Source of the DNA: Gemmatimonadetes bacterium bin94
GTDB taxonomy: Bacteria > Gemmatimonadota > Gemmatimonadetes > Longimicrobiales > Gaopeijiaceae
DNA length: 46,152 bases
Assembly: GCA_002238865.1 (NCBI GenBank)
Contig: MPNE01000033.1
Span: 1-46,152, forward strand
Reading direction: 5' to 3'
Shown: positions 8,269 through 16,398 of the stretch, piece after piece
Position numbering within the stretch: position 1 is the stretch's first letter
Layout of the letters: each line of letters opens with the position of its first letter
Program-made: the position numbers and the translations under genes
Notes under the pieces: model-generated
Seen by the model: the letters and a program-made list of their open reading frames with translations, nothing else
What the model was told of the DNA's origin: nothing
The model's database searches: none

Positions 8269-9417
8269 TCAGCGTGAGCCGGGGCCCGACGCAAATCGCT
8301 GAGCCGAATTCGCGGCGGTGGCCCGGGATTGGGACGTTGGCTCCGGGTAGAATTGCCGGCAATACAGGCGGAACTTCCCTATGGGACCGTCGGCACGGCA
8401 GAGCCGGGGGGGAGACCGATAGCGCTTTCGCTCCCAGATGACCACATCCTGCCTGACGTACCGCTTCTCCTCCAGCAGGAGCAAGCGACTCATCAGCCTG
8501 TGGCGCAGCTTCATCGGCAGGAACCCCAGGCCCACGATGAACCGCCGGGGCTTGCGGATTTCCCGTGCCTGAGTGACCAGCGTCAACCTGATGAACGTGC
8601 CGTCGACGGGCGTACCGAGCACCCACATTCTCGCATCCATGCCGATCGTCTTTTCGTGGATTTCGACGAACGAGTAGCCCAGTCCATGGACGTGGGTCAC
8701 GGTCTCGATATCGGACAGGATGTCGATCACGCCCGCGATCTTGCGAACGCTAGTGAAGTCGAAGCAGCTCTTCAGGTAGGCACCGTCGATCGACAGCGTA
8801 CCAACCGGCTCCACATCGCCGTAGCCGTGCGTGTAGCCGAGATGTTCCAGGTCCACGGAGTTCTCGGCCGTTTCCTGGGGATGACCTCGGAACCGGAAGG
8901 TGTAGGATCGCATCGGTGACCACTCCGGGCCGTCGGGCGGCTCGGGCGGCAGGTCCCACTGTGGCGGCCGCCCGCCAATCCCCCACCAGGCGAAGATCAT
9001 GCCGAGGATCTCTCTGGTCTCGTATACCTTCAGCTTCGCGGCTCTGGGAGCCGGGGCGTTGGGCGTGGCGACGCACGCGCCGGAGGTGTCGAACTCGAAG
9101 CCGTGAAAGGGACAGACGAGGCAGCCGTCGCGCACCACGCCGCCAACCGTCGGTCCCATGTGCGAGCCCAGGTGCGGGCAGAACGCACCGGCCACGCAAA
9201 TGCGACCGTTTCGGTCACTCCATACGACAATTTCCTCGCCCAGCCACGTCAGCTCGATCAATTTCCGGCGCAGAATGGACTCTCGGCTGGCGACAAAATA
9301 CCACCCCTCCGGGAACGGAGGCAGCTCATCCACACGATTGAGACGCCGCCGACCGGACGTCGTGGACGGTGTTTCCAAAGTTGATCTCAAGGCTGCCTGC
9401 TCGCCGCCTGGGGCCAT
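8269..9417 (-). CDS. Rieske [2Fe-2S] non-heme iron oxygenase, alpha-subunit type
   Basis: The protein is 382 aa from ATG 9417. The Rieske cluster ligands are clear: Cys80-x-His82 (CPHLGSHMG) and Cys102-x2-His105 (CPFHGF). The catalytic-domain iron motif follows: Asn186-x2-Asp189-x2-His192-x4-His197 (ENSVDLEHLGYTH). Overall layout and length resemble KshA/Neverland-type sterol or steroid oxygenases more than aromatic-ring dioxygenases, but the substrate is inferred. No ferredoxin, reductase or beta subunit lies nearby, so electrons must come from elsewhere. It lies downstream of lysJ on the same strand, with an 86-bp gap that holds a promoter candidate of its own. The C-terminal 25 residues are low complexity. 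Confidence 0.88.
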   Translation of the reverse strand: MAPGGEQAALRSTLETPSTTSGRRRLNRVDELPPFPEGWYFVASRESILRRKLIELTWLGEEIVVWSDRNGRICVAGAFCPHLGSHMGPTVGGVVRDGCLVCPFHGFEFDTSGACVATPNAPAPRAAKLKVYETREILGMIFAWWGIGGRPPQWDLPPEPPDGPEWSPMRSYTFRFRGHPQETAENSVDLEHLGYTHGYGDVEPVGTLSIDGAYLKSCFDFTSVRKIAGVIDILSDIETVTHVHGLGYSFVEIHEKTIGMDARMWVLGTPVDGTFIRLTLVTQAREIRKPRRFIVGLGFLPMKLRHRLMSRLLLLEEKRYVRQDVVIWERKRYRSPPRLCRADGPIGKFRLYCRQFYPEPTSQSRATAANSAQRFASGPGSR

Positions 9418-9503: not shown

Positions 9504-10658
9504 TCATTCCAGTACCTCGGCCAGCACGTCCACCACCTCGTCGATCTGCGCCTCGGAGATCACGAGCGGAGGCAGAAGACGGATCACGGTCGTCCCCGCG
9601 GGGAGTGTCAGAATCCCCTTCGCGGCCAGCGCTTCGATGTAGGGCCGGCAGCGTTCCTTCAGCTCGACCCCGATCATCAGGCCGATCTGGCGCAGGGCGC
9701 GGACGCGGGCGGGCATGCGGCGCTCGAAACGCTCCCGGAAGCGCGCGCCGAGCAACTCGGCCCGTTCCGCGAGCCGCTCGTCCTCCATGAACCGGATCGC
9801 GGCCAGCGCGGCGGCGCAGGCGAGCGGGTTGCCGCCGAAGGTCGTGCCGTGTTTGCCGGGGGGCAGCTGAATGCGTGGATCCGCAAGCACGGCGCCCAGG
9901 GGCACGCCACCGGCGATCGCCTTGGCCAGGCACAGCATGTCGGGGGTCACCCCATGGTGTTCGCACGCGAACATGCGGCCGGTGCGGCAGAATCCCGTCT
10001 GGATCTCGTCGAAGACCAGTATCGCGCCCGTCTCGTCGCAGATCTCGCGTGCTGCGCGCAGATATTCCGCGCTGGCCGGACGGATGCCGCCCTCACCCTG
10101 CACCGGCTCGATCATCACTGCCGCGGTGTCATCGCCCACGGCCTCCCGCAACCTTGCCGGGTTGTTGAACGGGACGAACGAGAACCCCGGCACCAGGGGC
10201 TTGAAGAGTTCCCGGTACTCCTTCTTGTAGGTGGCCGACAGCGCGCCCATGGTCCGGCCGTGGAAGCCGCGCATGGCCGAGACGATCCCGGTCCGCCCCG
10301 TCGTGAGGCGCGCGAACTTGATGGCCGCTTCGACGGCTTCGGCGCCGGAGTTGCACAGGAAGCCGCGCTGCAGGCCCGGTGGCGCCACGGCGGCCAGCTT
10401 CGCCAGGAGCCGGGCGCGCACGTCGTTGTAGAAGATCCCCGGGCAGGTCACCAGGGTCCGCGCCTGCCCGGCCAGGGCATCCGCCACAGCCGGGTTCGCG
10501 TGGCCGACGCTCGCCACCCCGATCCCCGCAACGCAGTCGATGTAGCGGCGGCCCTCGTCGTCCCACACCTCCGCCCCCCTTCCCTTCACGATGGTGATGT
10601 CCCGCTTCGGATAGACCTCCAGCCCGTACCGGCGCTCGGTGTCGCGGTAGATGCTCAT
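9504..10658 (-). CDS. lysJ: LysW-gamma-L-lysine / acetylornithine aminotransferase (class III, PLP)
   Basis: The protein is 384 aa. It is a fold-type I, class III aminotransferase of the ArgD/LysJ group: phosphate-binding [16 protein letters not shown] (around 102-117), [10 protein letters not shown], Asp217 in [14 protein letters not shown] and the PLP Schiff-base Lys246 in [12 protein letters not shown]. It should transfer the amino group of glutamate to the semialdehyde carried on LysW, giving LysW-lysine, or LysW-ornithine if the cluster serves arginine. As the last gene of the LysW cluster, 13 nt after lysZ, it is assigned to that pathway rather than to free acetylornithine. Sequence alone does not separate LysJ from ArgD. 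Confidence 0.9.
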
Positions 10659-10671
10659 GGGCTCACATACC

Positions 10672-11463
10672 TCACCCGATCAGGGTCCCTTTCCCGGCCA
10701 GCACGTCCGCGACCGGCGATTCGGTGCGTCCGTCCGCGATCACCACCTTCGTCGAACCTGACGTCACGATCCGGCTGATCGCCAGAAGCTTGCGCTTCAT
10801 GCGGCCACGAGCCGCGTCCTCGCGCCGCTTCAACTCCGCGCGGGGTATGCGCGCGACCACCGAGTCCGGATCATTCTCGTCGTCCAGGAAGCCGGGTGCC
10901 TCGATCAGATGCACCACCACCTCGGCACCGAGCACCGCGCTCATCAGCGCCACCATGTCGTCGTTCTCCGAGTTGACCGCCACGTTGCGTTCGTCGATCA
11001 GAGGCATCGTCACGACCGGCGTGTAGCCGTTGTCCAGCAGCAGCCCGAGCAGCTTGCGGTTGATTGCCACGGGCTTGCCCGAGAGATCGCGCTTGATCAG
11101 GGTCTTGCTCCCCTCCCGGACCCGGATCCCCTTGTTGCGCACGGCGCGCACGAGCGCGCCGTCAAGTCCGGTGAGGCCGACCGCGTTGACGCCATTCCGC
11201 TGGAAAAGTTCTACAAGCCGCTTGTTGCGCACGCCCGCGTACGCCATCAGCATCACGTCGATCAGCTCCGCGTCGGAGAACACGCTGTCGTAACCCGAAA
11301 CCGACGTCAGAACCCGTTTCTCGACCCCCATGCGCCGAGCCAGTTCATCGCGCAGTGCGTTGGCGCCGTGCACGATCACCTTGGGGGTCTCGACACTGGC
11401 CAGATCGCAGGCGATTCCGGCCAGGTTGATCGTTTCCCCGCCACCGATCTTGATCACCAGCAT
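10672..11463 (-). CDS. lysZ: [LysW]-aminoadipate / [LysW]-glutamate kinase
   Basis: The protein is 263 aa, in the amino acid kinase family. Visible are the N-terminal KIGGGE phosphate loop (5-10), VIVHGANALRDELARRMG, the LTGLDGALVRA stretch, and VNSENDDMVALMSAVLGAEVVVHLIEAPGFLDDEND near the substrate site. It phosphorylates the side-chain carboxylate of the amino acid attached to LysW, making the substrate for LysY. The RGRMKRKLLA segment (about 222-231) fits the basic surface that LysZ proteins use to hold acidic LysW, in contrast to ArgB. It starts 12 nt after the amidotransferase gene, so the two are almost certainly co-transcribed. Confidence 0.92.
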   Translation of the reverse strand: MLVIKIGGGETINLAGIACDLASVETPKVIVHGANALRDELARRMGVEKRVLTSVSGYDSVFSDAELIDVMLMAYAGVRNKRLVELFQRNGVNAVGLTGLDGALVRAVRNKGIRVREGSKTLIKRDLSGKPVAINRKLLGLLLDNGYTPVVTMPLIDERNVAVNSENDDMVALMSAVLGAEVVVHLIEAPGFLDDENDPDSVVARIPRAELKRREDAARGRMKRKLLAISRIVTSGSTKVVIADGRTESPVADVLAGKGTLIG

Positions 11464-11475
11464 TGTGCCCCCCCT

Positions 11476-12168
11476 TCAGTCGGAGTGGATCGCCGCCACG
11501 GTGCCGTTGCCGACCGGGGTCCAGGAGGGTGTCGCTTCCGCGGCCGGCCCGGCAATCGACCGACCTCGGCCACGGGATTGCGGATAGGGCTCCGAACAGA
11601 CAACGTGCGCACCGTTCACTTCGGCAGTGTGCATCTGGAAGTACTCCGGATCTTCACGGAAGTTCGTGGCGACATGAACCCGTGCCGAGGAGTCGGCAAC
11701 GATCATGTTCATCGCACGCACAAGGCGCGACCTCTTCCGGATCGCGTCGATCCCCCGCTCCAGCGCCAGCCGAAAATCTCCATGGTCAAAGCGTTTGACG
11801 AAGTTGAAGACCTTCTCCGCTCCGATCCTTCCGTGCTCCTTGATCCGAACGCCGTGCAACTCCCCGTTGAAGATGAAGACCCGTTCACCGTCAAAGAACG
11901 GCATGTTGTTCTCGACTCGTATCCCCTCGTCGCGAAACGCGCTCCTGGCGTGTGCGAGCAGGAGCGTCGTGCTGCCCGAAGGCCTCCAGCGATCCTCCCA
12001 CAGGGGTGCGATGTTGCGGTACAGGCGCCAGCGGCCACCCTCCAGCCAGGCGCAGCCCCACCCGTGGCCCTGGTACTCGCGGCTGTCCCGCGCGATCGCG
12101 GTGAAGGCGGCCAGGTGCTCTTCCATTTCGAATTCTTTGTCCTTGCGGACACAGAGGAGACGGCACAT
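11476..12168 (-). CDS. Class II glutamine amidotransferase / gamma-glutamyl hydrolase-like Ntn protein in LysW cluster
   Basis: The protein is 230 aa and begins Met-Cys-Arg, so Cys2 becomes the N-terminal nucleophile once Met is removed. The fold signature follows: LAHARSAF (Arg75), NNMPFFDGERVFIFNGELHG (Asn88, Asn101, Gly102), as in stand-alone class II glutaminases. The MCR start is shared with EgtC and Dug3, which cleave gamma-glutamyl amides, and with YafJ. No synthase domain is attached. The gene lies between lysY and lysZ in a pathway where the product stays bound to LysW through a gamma-glutamyl amide and where no LysK peptidase is present nearby. It may therefore release lysine or ornithine from LysW; alternatively it just supplies glutamate or ammonia. 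The C-terminal about 30 residues are poorly conserved in appearance. Function is inferred. Confidence 0.85.
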   Translation of the reverse strand: MCRLLCVRKDKEFEMEEHLAAFTAIARDSREYQGHGWGCAWLEGGRWRLYRNIAPLWEDRWRPSGSTTLLLAHARSAFRDEGIRVENNMPFFDGERVFIFNGELHGVRIKEHGRIGAEKVFNFVKRFDHGDFRLALERGIDAIRKRSRLVRAMNMIVADSSARVHVATNFREDPEYFQMHTAEVNGAHVVCSEPYPQSRGRGRSIAGPAAEATPSWTPVGNGTVAAIHSD

Positions 12169-12240: not shown

Positions 12241-13263
12241 CTACGCCGGATGCAGGCCCGGGAATTCCAGCCCGCGCGTCTCGGGCAACCCGTGCATGAC
12301 GTTGAAGGCCTGGACCGCCTGCCCGGCCGCACCCTTCATCAGGTTGTCGATCGCACTCATCACGACTACGCGGTTGGCAAGCGGGTCGCGCTCGAACCCG
12401 ACGTCGCAATAGTTGGATCCGCCCAGAAGATGCGGGTCCGGGTAGCGGTGTATCCCGGACCGCTCCTTCACGAGGCGCACGAAGGGCTCGCCGGCGTACG
12501 CGCTTCGGTAGATCCGCCACAGCGCCTTGTCGTCCAGGTCGCGGTTGACAAAGACATGGCACGTCGCGAGAACGCCCCGCACCATCTCGACCGAGGTGGC
12601 GGAAAAGTGGATATCGCCGCCCAGCGCCGCTCTGATTTCGGCGAGGTGGCGGTGCCCGGTGGGCTTGTAGGAGCGCATCGCGCCGCTCCGCTCGGGGTGG
12701 TGGCTCCCCGGGGTCGACCGGTTCCCGGCTTCGCTCGAACCGACCTTGACCTCGATCACCGCCGAGTCGGCCACCCCTGCCCGGTAGAGCGGGTGAAGCC
12801 CCAGGATTGCGGCCGTGGCGTTGCACCCCGCGCAGGCTACCAGGTCTGCTCGCACAAGCGCGTCCCGGCCGAGTTCGGCGATACCGTACACGAAGCTCCC
12901 GAGCAGATCCGGTCGCGGGTGGGGGCCACCGTAGAAGCGCTCGTACTCGGCGGGATCGCGCAGGCGGAAGTCTGCGCCCAGGTCGATGACGCGCCCGCCG
13001 AGGCGGCGAAAATCGTCGATTCGGCGTGACGACTCACCGTGCGGAAGGCACAGGAAGAGCACGTCGCACTCGGTCAGGTCGGCGAGGGTGCTGAAGCGGA
13101 GCCGTGTGCGCCCGCGCAGGTTGGGGTGGACCCGCTGCGCAAACCTGCCGGCAAAGCGTTCAGAGGTGATCTGGCGGACTTCGGCGTCGCCGTGGCCAAG
13201 CAGCAAGCGCAACAATTCGCCCCCGGCGTATCCGGAAGCGCCCGCGATCGAGACGCTGATCAC
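12241..13263 (-). CDS. lysY: [LysW]-aminoadipyl / [LysW]-glutamyl phosphate reductase
   Basis: The protein is 340 aa from GTG 13263, which overlaps the lysX stop by 4 nt (GTGA). It has the NADP loop [17 protein letters not shown] (5-21), the catalytic Cys147 in [19 protein letters not shown], the [19 protein letters not shown] segment and a TGHRHLAEI helix with the likely catalytic His. It reduces the acyl phosphate made by LysZ to the semialdehyde used by LysJ and is a paralogue of ArgC. The SHHPERSG segment and the LysW context favour LysY over ArgC. A 72-nt gap separates it from the amidotransferase gene; no promoter was seen in it. Confidence 0.92.
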
Positions 13264-14099
13264 GCGCGTGCCGCCTCTATCACATGGGAAACGACCCGCT
13301 CCGGTATGTTCACGCCCGTAACCTCGATGCTGTTCCTGAACTCCATGGTGTAGTTGACCTCGTTGACCAGGAGCCCGTCCGCGGTCTCGAAGAGATCCAC
13401 GGCGAGGACGCCGCCCCCGACCGCGGCCGCCGCCCTCAGCGACATGTCCGCGATGGCCGGGGTGACCGGGCAGTTCGTCGCTCGTCCGCCCCTCGCCGTG
13501 TTCGTGATCCAGTGTTCGGAAGTCCGGTAGATCGCTGCGATGCACTCGTCGCCGACCACGAAGGCACGGATGTCGCGACCGCCCTTCCTCACGTATTTCT
13601 GCACAAAGAAGATCGAGTGGTGGTAGCTGCCCAGAATGGACTTGTGCTCCAGGACCGTTTCGGCTGCGTCGCGGTCGTTGATCCTGGAAAGCAGGCGGCC
13701 CCACGAGCCGACCGCCGGCTTGAGCACTACCGGGTAGCCCATCTCCTCGATGGCCACCAGGGCCGATTCGGGGGTGAACGCCACCCTCACGTCAGGCTGC
13801 GGCACCCCCGTCTCGCGCAGCGACGCAGCCGTGAGGATCTTGTCTCCGCAGCGCCGCGCAACTTCGTACGTGTTGACGCACACCGTTCCGACGCCCTCAT
13901 AGAGCCTGAGCGCGTGCATGGCGCGTGAATGGTTGATCGAACGCTCCAGGACCACGTCCACGTCCGGGCGCGCATGGAAGTCGAAGACGAGCGTGCGGTC
14001 GTTCAGAAGGACCAGTTCGATGTCACTGTGCCTGCGCAGCTCGGAAATAAGTAGCTTTTCGTCCTTGCGGATGAGGGAATGCAGGAACCCGACCCTCAT
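13260..14099 (-). CDS. lysX: LysW ligase (alpha-aminoadipate or glutamate--LysW ligase)
   Basis: The protein is 279 aa and is an ATP-grasp ligase of the RimK/LysX group. Visible are Lys127 in [16 protein letters not shown] (the Gly-rich ATP loop 131-136), [19 protein letters not shown], the [15 protein letters not shown] substrate loop (197-211) and the metal-binding [11 protein letters not shown] (246-256). It joins the alpha-amino group of aminoadipate (LysX) or glutamate (ArgX) to the gamma-carboxylate of the C-terminal Glu of LysW. The NTARGG loop matches what I recall of Thermus LysX, but I cannot decide between lysine and arginine, or both. ATG 14099 overlaps the lysW stop by 4 nt, so carrier and ligase are translationally coupled. 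Confidence 0.93.
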
Positions 14100-14260
14100 T
14101 CACCCCAGTCCTCTTCCGCATCGGGAGCTTCCCCGAGCGTAAGCGGATCAAGCCCCAGGATCTCGAGCTCCACACCGCACTCGGCACACTCGAGCAGCTC
14201 ACCTTCGACGGGATCGGCGGAGATCTCGACTTCCCCACCGCATACGGGACATTCAGACAT
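14096..14260 (-). CDS. lysW: Amino-group carrier protein LysW
   Basis: This is a very small acidic protein (54 aa) from ATG 14258-14260. It has a zinc ribbon made by Cys4-x2-Cys7 (CPVCGG) and Cys25-x2-Cys28 (CAECG), then an acidic tail ending in the diagnostic EDWGE. The terminal Glu54 carries the growing amino acid as a gamma-glutamyl amide, protecting its alpha-amino group through the kinase, reductase and aminotransferase steps. It is the first gene of the cluster and overlaps lysX by 4 nt. An AGGGGG stretch about 10 nt before the ATG probably serves as ribosome-binding site. The identification is firm because of size, zinc ribbon and C-terminus together. Confidence 0.95.
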
Positions 14261-14484: not shown

Positions 14485-16398
14485 TCATGCGGGAGGGTCC
14501 GCCAACGAAGACGTGGGAATCTCCCGGGCCTCGACCCGGCGCCCGTCGCGCAGGGTCACGTACGCTTCCATCGCACGGTAGGCGGGCAGGCCCAGCGCGT
14601 GAAGCAAGTCTGCCGTACCCCGGTTTCGATCCACCACACGCTGCCAGAACTCACGCTCGTCCGGACCCGGGAATGGCGCGGAGTCCTTCTGCGACTCGTG
14701 TCTGAAAATCGCCTGGACCTTGCCCCGCATCTCGCCCTCCGACAGCGGCACGAGCACGGTTGCTTCGTTCACGCTCCACTCCTGCCAGGCACCCCGGTAC
14801 AGCCACAGCCACGGTGGCTCGCCGCTGTAGCGTTCGAGAGCCCCTTCCACCGTTTCCAGGCACATGCGGTGCGTGCCGTGGGGGTCGGAAAGGTCTCCCG
14901 CGGCGAACACCATCGACGGACGCACCTCTTCCAACACCCCGGTTACGATGTCCACGTCCGCCTCCGTAACCGGGTGCTTCCTGACCTTCCCCGTCTGGTA
15001 GAAGGGCAGATTCAGGAAGCGGGCGCGGTCCGCCGGCAGCCCCAGCGATTCGATCGCCGCCGAAGCCTCGCTCTCCCGGATGATCCGCTTGAGATCCTGC
15101 ACCACCGCGGGATCGACGTCGCCGGACATCTTGTGTGAGAGATCCACCTCGATGGACTTCAACACTGCCTCCAGGGCCTCCCGGTCGCCCACGTCGATCA
15201 CCTTGGCCGCGCGCCTCATCACGTCGAGGTAGCGGCGGACCTCATGGTCGAAGACGGCGATGTTCCCGGACGTCTGATACGCGACCGTGACGTCGTTGCC
15301 ATTCTCGGCGAGCTTGCGGAGCAGGCCGCCCATCGAGATCACGTCGTCGTCCGGGTGCGGCGAGAAGACAAGCATCTTCTGGCCGCGCGGGAGCCGGCTC
15401 TTGCCGCGAATCTTCGAGATCAGCGCATTGAAGACCTGGCCGTTGAGCGGCTCCGCCGACCCGTGCCGGGACACCAGCGACCCGAGGTGGTGCTCCCGGT
15501 AGTCGTCGGTGGCAAGGTGGAGGATGGGCTTGCCGGTGCGACGGCTCAGCCAGATGACGGCCTCGGTCTCCCGGTGCGGGGTCCATTCCATGTCGTCGAC
15601 GAGCCACGGCGTCCGGTTCCGCGTGAGGTCGGCGGCCGCGGGCGGATCGAGGTAGACGGTGGCCGCGGGGTGCTGCTGCAGGAACGTCGCCGCGACATCG
15701 GGGTGGATCTCCCCCTCGACAGCCCGCCGCACGATCCCCGCCTTGTGTTCGCCGGTCGCCAACAGTGCGATCTCGCGAGCCTCGAGGATCGTCGCCACGC
15801 CCATCGTGATCGCCTGGGGGGGCACATTGTCCTCGCCGAAGAAATCGGCAGCCGCATCCGCGCGCGTGACCGTGTCCAGGTAGAGCCGCCGTGTGCGCGA
15901 CCTCCGCCCCGAGCCCGGTTCGTTGAACCCGATGTGGCCGCTGCGGCCGATCCCCAGAATCTGCAAATCGATCCCTCCCGCTTCGCGAATCCGGCGTTCG
16001 TAGTCGAGGCAGTGGGCCTCCACATCGGCATCGGGAAGGTCGCCACGGGGAATGTGGCAATGGCTGGAAGGGATATTCACATGCGCGAACAGGTTCTCCC
16101 CCATGTAGCGGTGGTAGCTGTGAATGCTCCCGGGCTGCATGGGGACGTACTCGTCGAGGTTGAAGACAACGACGTTGGAGAAGTCGAGCCCTTCTTCGCG
16201 GTGCATCCGGATGAGCTCGCGGTAGACGCCTACCGGCGTGGACCCGGTCGCAAGGCCGAGCACGGCGGCCCGGCCCTCGCCGGCACGATCCCGAACCAGG
16301 GCCGCAATCCGCCCGGCGACCTCGGCGGCGATGCTGTCGTGATCCGGCATGACGCGAACCGGAATGCGTTCGCGCCGTGCCGAATTGGATGCGCTCAT
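14485..16398 (-). CDS. NagB-like isomerase/deaminase fused to PIG-L (LmbE) deacetylase
   Basis: The protein is 637 aa with two domains. Residues about 15-285 are glucosamine-6-phosphate deaminase-like: GLATGSTPVGVYREL (48-62), VFNLDEYV (78-85) and GIGRSGHIGFNEPGS (149-163; His155, Glu160). In classical NagB the last motif reads DGH; here Ser153 replaces the catalytic Asp, so chemistry or substrate may differ. Residues about 340-600 are a PIG-L/LmbE zinc deacetylase with HPDDD (348-352) and a late DPHGTH. Such fusions are known in other phyla. A role in amino-sugar turnover (N-deacetylation plus deamination/isomerisation) is inferred. Its start is 37 nt after the M16 protease stop, so co-transcription is possible. 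Confidence 0.9.
   Translation of the reverse strand: MSASNSARRERIPVRVMPDHDSIAAEVAGRIAALVRDRAGEGRAAVLGLATGSTPVGVYRELIRMHREEGLDFSNVVVFNLDEYVPMQPGSIHSYHRYMGENLFAHVNIPSSHCHIPRGDLPDADVEAHCLDYERRIREAGGIDLQILGIGRSGHIGFNEPGSGRRSRTRRLYLDTVTRADAAADFFGEDNVPPQAITMGVATILEAREIALLATGEHKAGIVRRAVEGEIHPDVAATFLQQHPAATVYLDPPAAADLTRNRTPWLVDDMEWTPHRETEAVIWLSRRTGKPILHLATDDYREHHLGSLVSRHGSAEPLNGQVFNALISKIRGKSRLPRGQKMLVFSPHPDDDVISMGGLLRKLAENGNDVTVAYQTSGNIAVFDHEVRRYLDVMRRAAKVIDVGDREALEAVLKSIEVDLSHKMSGDVDPAVVQDLKRIIRESEASAAIESLGLPADRARFLNLPFYQTGKVRKHPVTEADVDIVTGVLEEVRPSMVFAAGDLSDPHGTHRMCLETVEGALERYSGEPPWLWLYRGAWQEWSVNEATVLVPLSEGEMRGKVQAIFRHESQKDSAPFPGPDEREFWQRVVDRNRGTADLLHALGLPAYRAMEAYVTLRDGRRVEAREIPTSSLADPPA

Follow-up and report, generated by a model that had tools for sequence, protein, structure and literature searches.

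A predicted LysW-gamma-amide hydrolase with the class II amidotransferase fold as a putative replacement of LysK in lysW operons

The lysW operon and its additional gene

The window, i.e. the whole analyzed stretch of 46,152 nucleotides from contig MPNE01000033.1 of Gemmatimonadetes bacterium bin94, carries a tight cluster of genes located on one strand in the order lysW-X-Y-[GAT]-Z-J, where GAT, the gene discussed here, lies between lysY and lysZ. The genes of the cluster are as follows.

14096..14260, minus strand: lysW, carrier protein ending in EEDWGE; passes the NCBIfam TIGR01206 cut-off
13260..14099, minus strand: lysX, ATP-grasp ligase with a GSWGR motif; passes the TIGR02144 cut-off
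12241..13263, minus strand: lysY, ArgC family, GTG start; passes TIGR01850 (the argC model)
11476..12168, minus strand: candidate LysW-gamma-amide hydrolase, class II amidotransferase-fold Ntn hydrolase of 230 aa with an MCR N-terminus
10672..11463, minus strand: lysZ, [LysW]-aminoadipate/glutamate kinase; passes the NF010659 cut-off
9504..10658, minus strand: lysJ, aminotransferase of the argD subfamily; passes TIGR00707

All components of a LysW operon are present in the window, namely a LysW with the C-terminal EDWGE, whose terminal Glu is the attachment site, together with LysX, LysY, LysZ, and LysJ. As to LysJ, its best model is LysJ_Th_th, with a score under the cut-off of that model. 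The initial annotation had described a stand-alone, MCR-starting protein of the class II amidotransferase fold between lysY and lysZ, in a cluster without LysK. Both statements are confirmed, the former by the open reading frame at 11476-12168, by profiles and by a structural model. Since the gene is kept across the phylum at 43-74% identity, it does not represent a chance open reading frame.

The gene that immediately follows lysJ on this strand (8269-9417, minus strand) encodes a Rieske oxygenase whose C-terminal domain is of the KshA type; it has no obvious connection with the LysW pathway. The gene at 14485-16398 (minus strand) seems, as far as its sequence can be read, to encode a domain of the glucosamine-6-phosphate deaminase type and an LmbE/PIG-L-like deacetylase domain with a PHPDD motif.

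Fold and active site

Taken as a single sequence, the window hydrolase matched no Pfam family, M20 included, and no NCBIfam family covers it. Its match to the EgtC model TIGR03442 is weak (E 2.9e-9; 36.6 bits vs. the cut-off of 218.65), and the same model is weakly matched by 55 of 55 relatives, 35 of which also match GATase_4. The profile of the relatives matches EgtC and PDB entry 3mdn, a protein with a class II amidotransferase domain. The AlphaFold model of the window protein (pLDDT 91.9) has EgtC as its best structural match (4zfl; Z 25.4, rmsd 1.8 over 201 residues), followed by GlmS and PurF. The weak EgtC match, the GATase_4 matches of the relatives and the AlphaFold model secure the assignment to class II amidotransferases, and the protein is thus predicted to be an Ntn hydrolase of this fold with an N-terminal Cys nucleophile.

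EgtC, the ergothioneine amidohydrolase (PDB 4zfj/4zfk/4zfl), hydrolyzes a gamma-glutamyl amide and shares with the window protein the fold, the N-terminal Cys2 and the organization as a small stand-alone enzyme. However, the two are only about 18% identical, the window protein falls far under the EgtC cut-off, and its presumed substrate is a protein C-terminus.

The active site was analyzed in an alignment of 114 family members with seven canonical class II amidotransferases (E. coli GlmS, PurF, and YafJ, and four EgtC/YafJ-like paralogues). The codons of its key residues in the window are given below.

12163..12165, minus strand: catalytic Cys2; Cys in 113 of the 113 members with an N-terminus
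11944..11946, minus strand: Arg75, equivalent of the Arg that binds the glutamine alpha-carboxylate in class II amidotransferases; 114 of 114
11863..11868, minus strand: Asn101-Gly102, oxyanion hole; 114 of 114
11821..11823, minus strand: Gly116; Gly in 114 of 114 members, the alpha-amine-binding Asp in 7 of 7 canonical enzymes

The Cys, the Arg and the Asn-Gly of the glutaminase site are shared with GlmS, PurF, and YafJ (GATase_4/GATase_6). In contrast to these enzymes, the hydrolases have neither a synthase domain, nor the Asp binding the free amine, nor the His ahead of Asn-Gly, in place of which Phe100 is found in all 114 members. EgtC, too, possesses the alpha-amine Asp at the position where the hydrolase has Gly, and the HMM alignment to 3mdn sets STDSE of the latter and RIGAE of the hydrolase in the same register. 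In the structures of PurF and GlmS, the Asp at the position equivalent to Gly116 binds the free alpha-ammonium group of glutamine. The C-terminal Glu of LysW has a free alpha-carboxylate, while its alpha-amine is tied up in a peptide bond, and for this reason the change of Asp to Gly at position 116 is the one to be expected of a LysW-directed enzyme. At five other positions (114, 119, 125, 146, and 151) a basic residue is found in over 90% of the family members and in at most one of the seven canonical enzymes; the employment of positive residues toward the acidic carrier is reported for LysW enzymes (PMC9303977).

A divergent member from an acidobacterium (genome G311; locus L229, 2868-3623), about 25% identical to the window protein, is encoded at the end of its operon, after lysJ, and contains GTIGSQ replacing GRIGAE; the key position is likewise occupied by Gly.

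Distribution of the hydrolase and LysK

Among 200 genomes of Gemmatimonadota, LysX is present in 29 (28 over the cut-off and G164 at 253 bits). Strong homologues of the hydrolase were found in 27 of these. The other two, G013 and G198, are the only genomes with LysK over the cut-off, which in both belongs to the LysX cluster with the order W-X-Y-Z-J-K, and no genome has both enzymes. None of the 171 LysX-negative genomes of the phylum contains the hydrolase, three LysX-less genomes of the window's own genus among them, and over the 200 genomes the association of the hydrolase with LysX has a Fisher p of about 2e-31. In G138 and G192, which belong to this genus, neither LysX, nor the hydrolase, nor an ArgC homologue was detected, and arginine synthesis has probably been lost. 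The hydrolase gene and lysW-X-Y are located on separate contigs of the two-contig genome G160 (loci L232, 5302-5991, and L233), the hydrolase gene standing alone and adjoining a glycosidase-like gene, and in G097 the lys cluster is split over contigs.

In Acidobacteriota, LysX occurs in 20 of 149 genomes, of which seven have the hydrolase, 11 have LysK, two have neither and none has both; 20 LysX-negative controls from this phylum have neither enzyme. The two genomes without either enzyme, G321 and G378 (L227 and L228), nevertheless carry lysW-X-Y. The contig of G378 stops just past lysY, and in G321 the gene next to lysY is oxidoreductase-like and unrelated, so that in this genome lysZ/lysJ and the release enzyme should be located elsewhere or be missing. 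Altogether, none of the 49 LysX genomes of the two phyla has both enzymes (Fisher p about 4e-10, a value that ignores relatedness). The hydrolase accompanies LysX far beyond chance and is complementary to LysK, as could be expected from the initial proposal that it takes the place of the latter.

In the LysX tree, GAT-type and LysK-type operons fall on opposite sides of one branch with a support of 92, and G321 and G378 group on the LysK side. The pattern therefore reflects two lineages of operons that have spread across phyla, each having its own enzyme for the release; many independent replacements are not supported, since the tree has one split. Because the two lineages are inherited, the co-occurrence counts are weaker as independent evidence. 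This does not affect the residue argument, the case of the archaeon AR15 (see below) or the constancy of the hydrolase gene, which was present in all tested genomes of its operon lineage.

When one genome of each species was scanned, 254 relatives were found, 80 of which were retrieved. These come from Gammaproteobacteria, Calditrichota, KSB1, Ignavibacteria/Melioribacter, Bacteroidetes, Acidobacteria, Deltaproteobacteria, Planctomycetota, Gemmatimonadota, and DPANN archaea. All 80 adjoin lys genes, lysX/Y/Z/J being found instead of an operon of the EgtC ergothioneine type, and in each of the 70 loci that include both lysY and lysZ the hydrolase gene lies between them. No LysK was found close by in those 70 loci, nor over the cut-off in any of 48 whole genomes to which the retrieved relatives belong. 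At four loci with lysX/lysY or lysZ/lysJ not nearby (L104, L120, L149, and L159), only unrelated genes or shadow open reading frames were seen.

The archaeon AR15 has a complete chromosome of 1.158 Mb (1,157,690 bases, including 2,673 masked ones), on which lysX, lysY, GAT, lysZ, and lysJ are encoded with lysW upstream; the genes of homocitrate synthase, homoaconitase and homoisocitrate dehydrogenase are located between lysW and lysX. No M20 peptidase was detected on this chromosome (best E 8.9), while the model used recovers all seven such proteins from the window's genome, each with an E below 1e-18. Lysine should therefore be released in AR15 by something else, for which the hydrolase is the conserved candidate within the operon. 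The search of a Woesearchaeota genome of 0.9 Mb gave no candidates. Three of the loci (L132, L095, and L136, from AR15 and Woesearchaeota) represent small-genome DPANN with complete LysW-aminoadipate lysine operons that include the hydrolase. Many bacteria with the LysW pathway, as well as some archaea, lack LysK and carry an unrelated Cys enzyme in the same operon.

Release of the product from LysW

No protein encoded in the whole genome to which the window belongs (4.42 Mb, 97.5% complete) exceeds the cut-off of the LysK model TIGR01902, the best score being 64 vs. 163 bits. Its seven M20 proteins are nearest to the ArgE/DapE, YgeY-like and dipeptidase families, and none reaches the [LysW]-lysine hydrolase model. 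The genome-wide search, revealing no clear LysK, leaves the replacement of this enzyme unrefuted, and a LysK encoded elsewhere, one of the simpler alternatives considered at the outset, was rejected at the curated cut-off for this genome and for 48 others.

As to the product, a homocitrate synthase is located near lysX in 18 loci (in six of them identified by curated models), which indicates lysine as the probable product of those operons. The window's genome and its complete relatives G017, G058, and G069 possess LysA but no ArgJ, and have LysY as their sole ArgC homologue; from this, ornithine for arginine is the likelier product and is most likely the one made in the window's lineage. A LysW-glutamate route to ornithine was reported for host-associated Gemmatimonadota (PMC11651109). 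The specificity motif of LysX, in the sequences in which it could be located, is nearly always EF[RK]NS and does not by itself decide the substrate; in the window it reads EFRNS and resembles that of aminoadipate-type enzymes, though the genome context suggests ornithine. The scope of the initial suggestion, release of lysine or ornithine, is thereby corrected: the hydrolase seems to act in operons of the lysine type, with homocitrate synthase in the cluster, and probably also in those of the ornithine type, that of the window included.

The operon, the distribution, the complementarity to LysK, the residue pattern and the predicted fold lead us to regard the window protein as very probably a dedicated LysW-gamma-amide hydrolase that has replaced LysK non-orthologously; the reading proposed in the initial annotation is supported both by the lack of a clear LysK in the genome and by the complementary occurrence of the two enzymes. 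The step proposed for it is that of LysK, i.e. release of the product from LysW, but LysK is an M20 metallopeptidase (TIGR01902/NF003367) encoded at the end of its operon, whereas the hydrolase, encoded between lysY and lysZ, has an unrelated fold and chemistry, being a Cys Ntn hydrolase with no metal site.

We infer the substrate, the chemistry and the docking to be as follows. LysX would attach glutamate (or alpha-aminoadipate) by its amino group to LysW, at the gamma-carboxylate of the terminal Glu; LysZ, LysY, and LysJ would then give LysW-gamma-ornithine (or LysW-gamma-lysine). Cys2, exposed by removal of Met, would attack the gamma-glutamyl amide; the free amino acid would depart, and hydrolysis of the LysW-acyl thioester would regenerate LysW. 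In the course of this reaction the free alpha-carboxylate of that Glu should be bound by Arg75 and the oxyanion by Asn101-Gly102, while Gly116 in place of Asp should make space for the peptide bond that links the Glu to the Gly before it in LysW. The basic, family-specific residues R114, K119, K125, R146, and R151 may dock the acidic EDWGE tail.

The product could instead be released by an M20 peptidase encoded elsewhere, a deacylase of the ArgE/DapE type, with the Ntn hydrolase doing something else. LysK, ArgE, and DapE are homologues (PMC10433800), most GAT genomes have other M20 proteins that could in principle act, and one of the seven in the window's genome (L001), nearest to acetylornithine deacetylase, is over the cut-off of the DapE-ArgE subfamily. 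Still, we consider this unlikely, as no M20 protein of that genome passes the cut-offs for LysK or [LysW]-lysine hydrolase, the complete AR15 chromosome carries the same operon and no M20 protein at all, the small Woesearchaeota genome offers no candidates, and the Ntn gene in every LysK-less operon would be left unexplained.

Hydrolysis of free glutamine, supplying glutamate to LysX/LysJ, would fit the class II amidotransferase fold with its intact Cys, Arg, and Asn-Gly. This simpler function is, however, weakened by the invariant Gly in place of the Asp that the canonical enzymes use for the alpha-amine of glutamine, and mutual exclusion with LysK is not expected of a glutaminase, which makes it very improbable in our opinion. 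Even less probability can be given to an editing or salvage hydrolase, which would strip wrongly attached amino acids off LysW while another enzyme releases the product. Such an enzyme would presumably have the same chemistry and substrate class, and the residue data alone fit editing and release alike, but it should sometimes occur beside LysK, which is the case in 0 of the 49 LysX genomes.

The predicted hydrolase quite probably represents a previously undescribed family of Cys hydrolases of the class II amidotransferase fold whose activity has moved away from free glutamine toward a gamma-glutamyl amide at the C-terminus of a protein. In a second, widespread lineage of LysW operons, bacterial as well as DPANN-archaeal, this family would probably release the product, lysine as well as ornithine, in place of LysK. 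In the open library searched, no paper was found that joins LysW with a glutamine amidotransferase. The genome paper on Caldithrix abyssi placed LysWXZYJ and Hcs in one locus and other homologues of the pathway elsewhere, and pointed out that lysine synthesis in this organism may involve non-orthologous displacement, calling for further work (PMC5317091).

If our reading is true, a gap in the last step of a primary biosynthetic route is filled, and automated pathway reconstructions that require LysK would score organisms with GAT-type operons as incomplete. The pattern FNGEL-GVR-...-GRIGAEK provides a sequence marker for annotation of the hydrolase family, and the Asp-to-Gly change would show how a single position can signal the turn from free glutamine to a glutamyl amide bound to a carrier.
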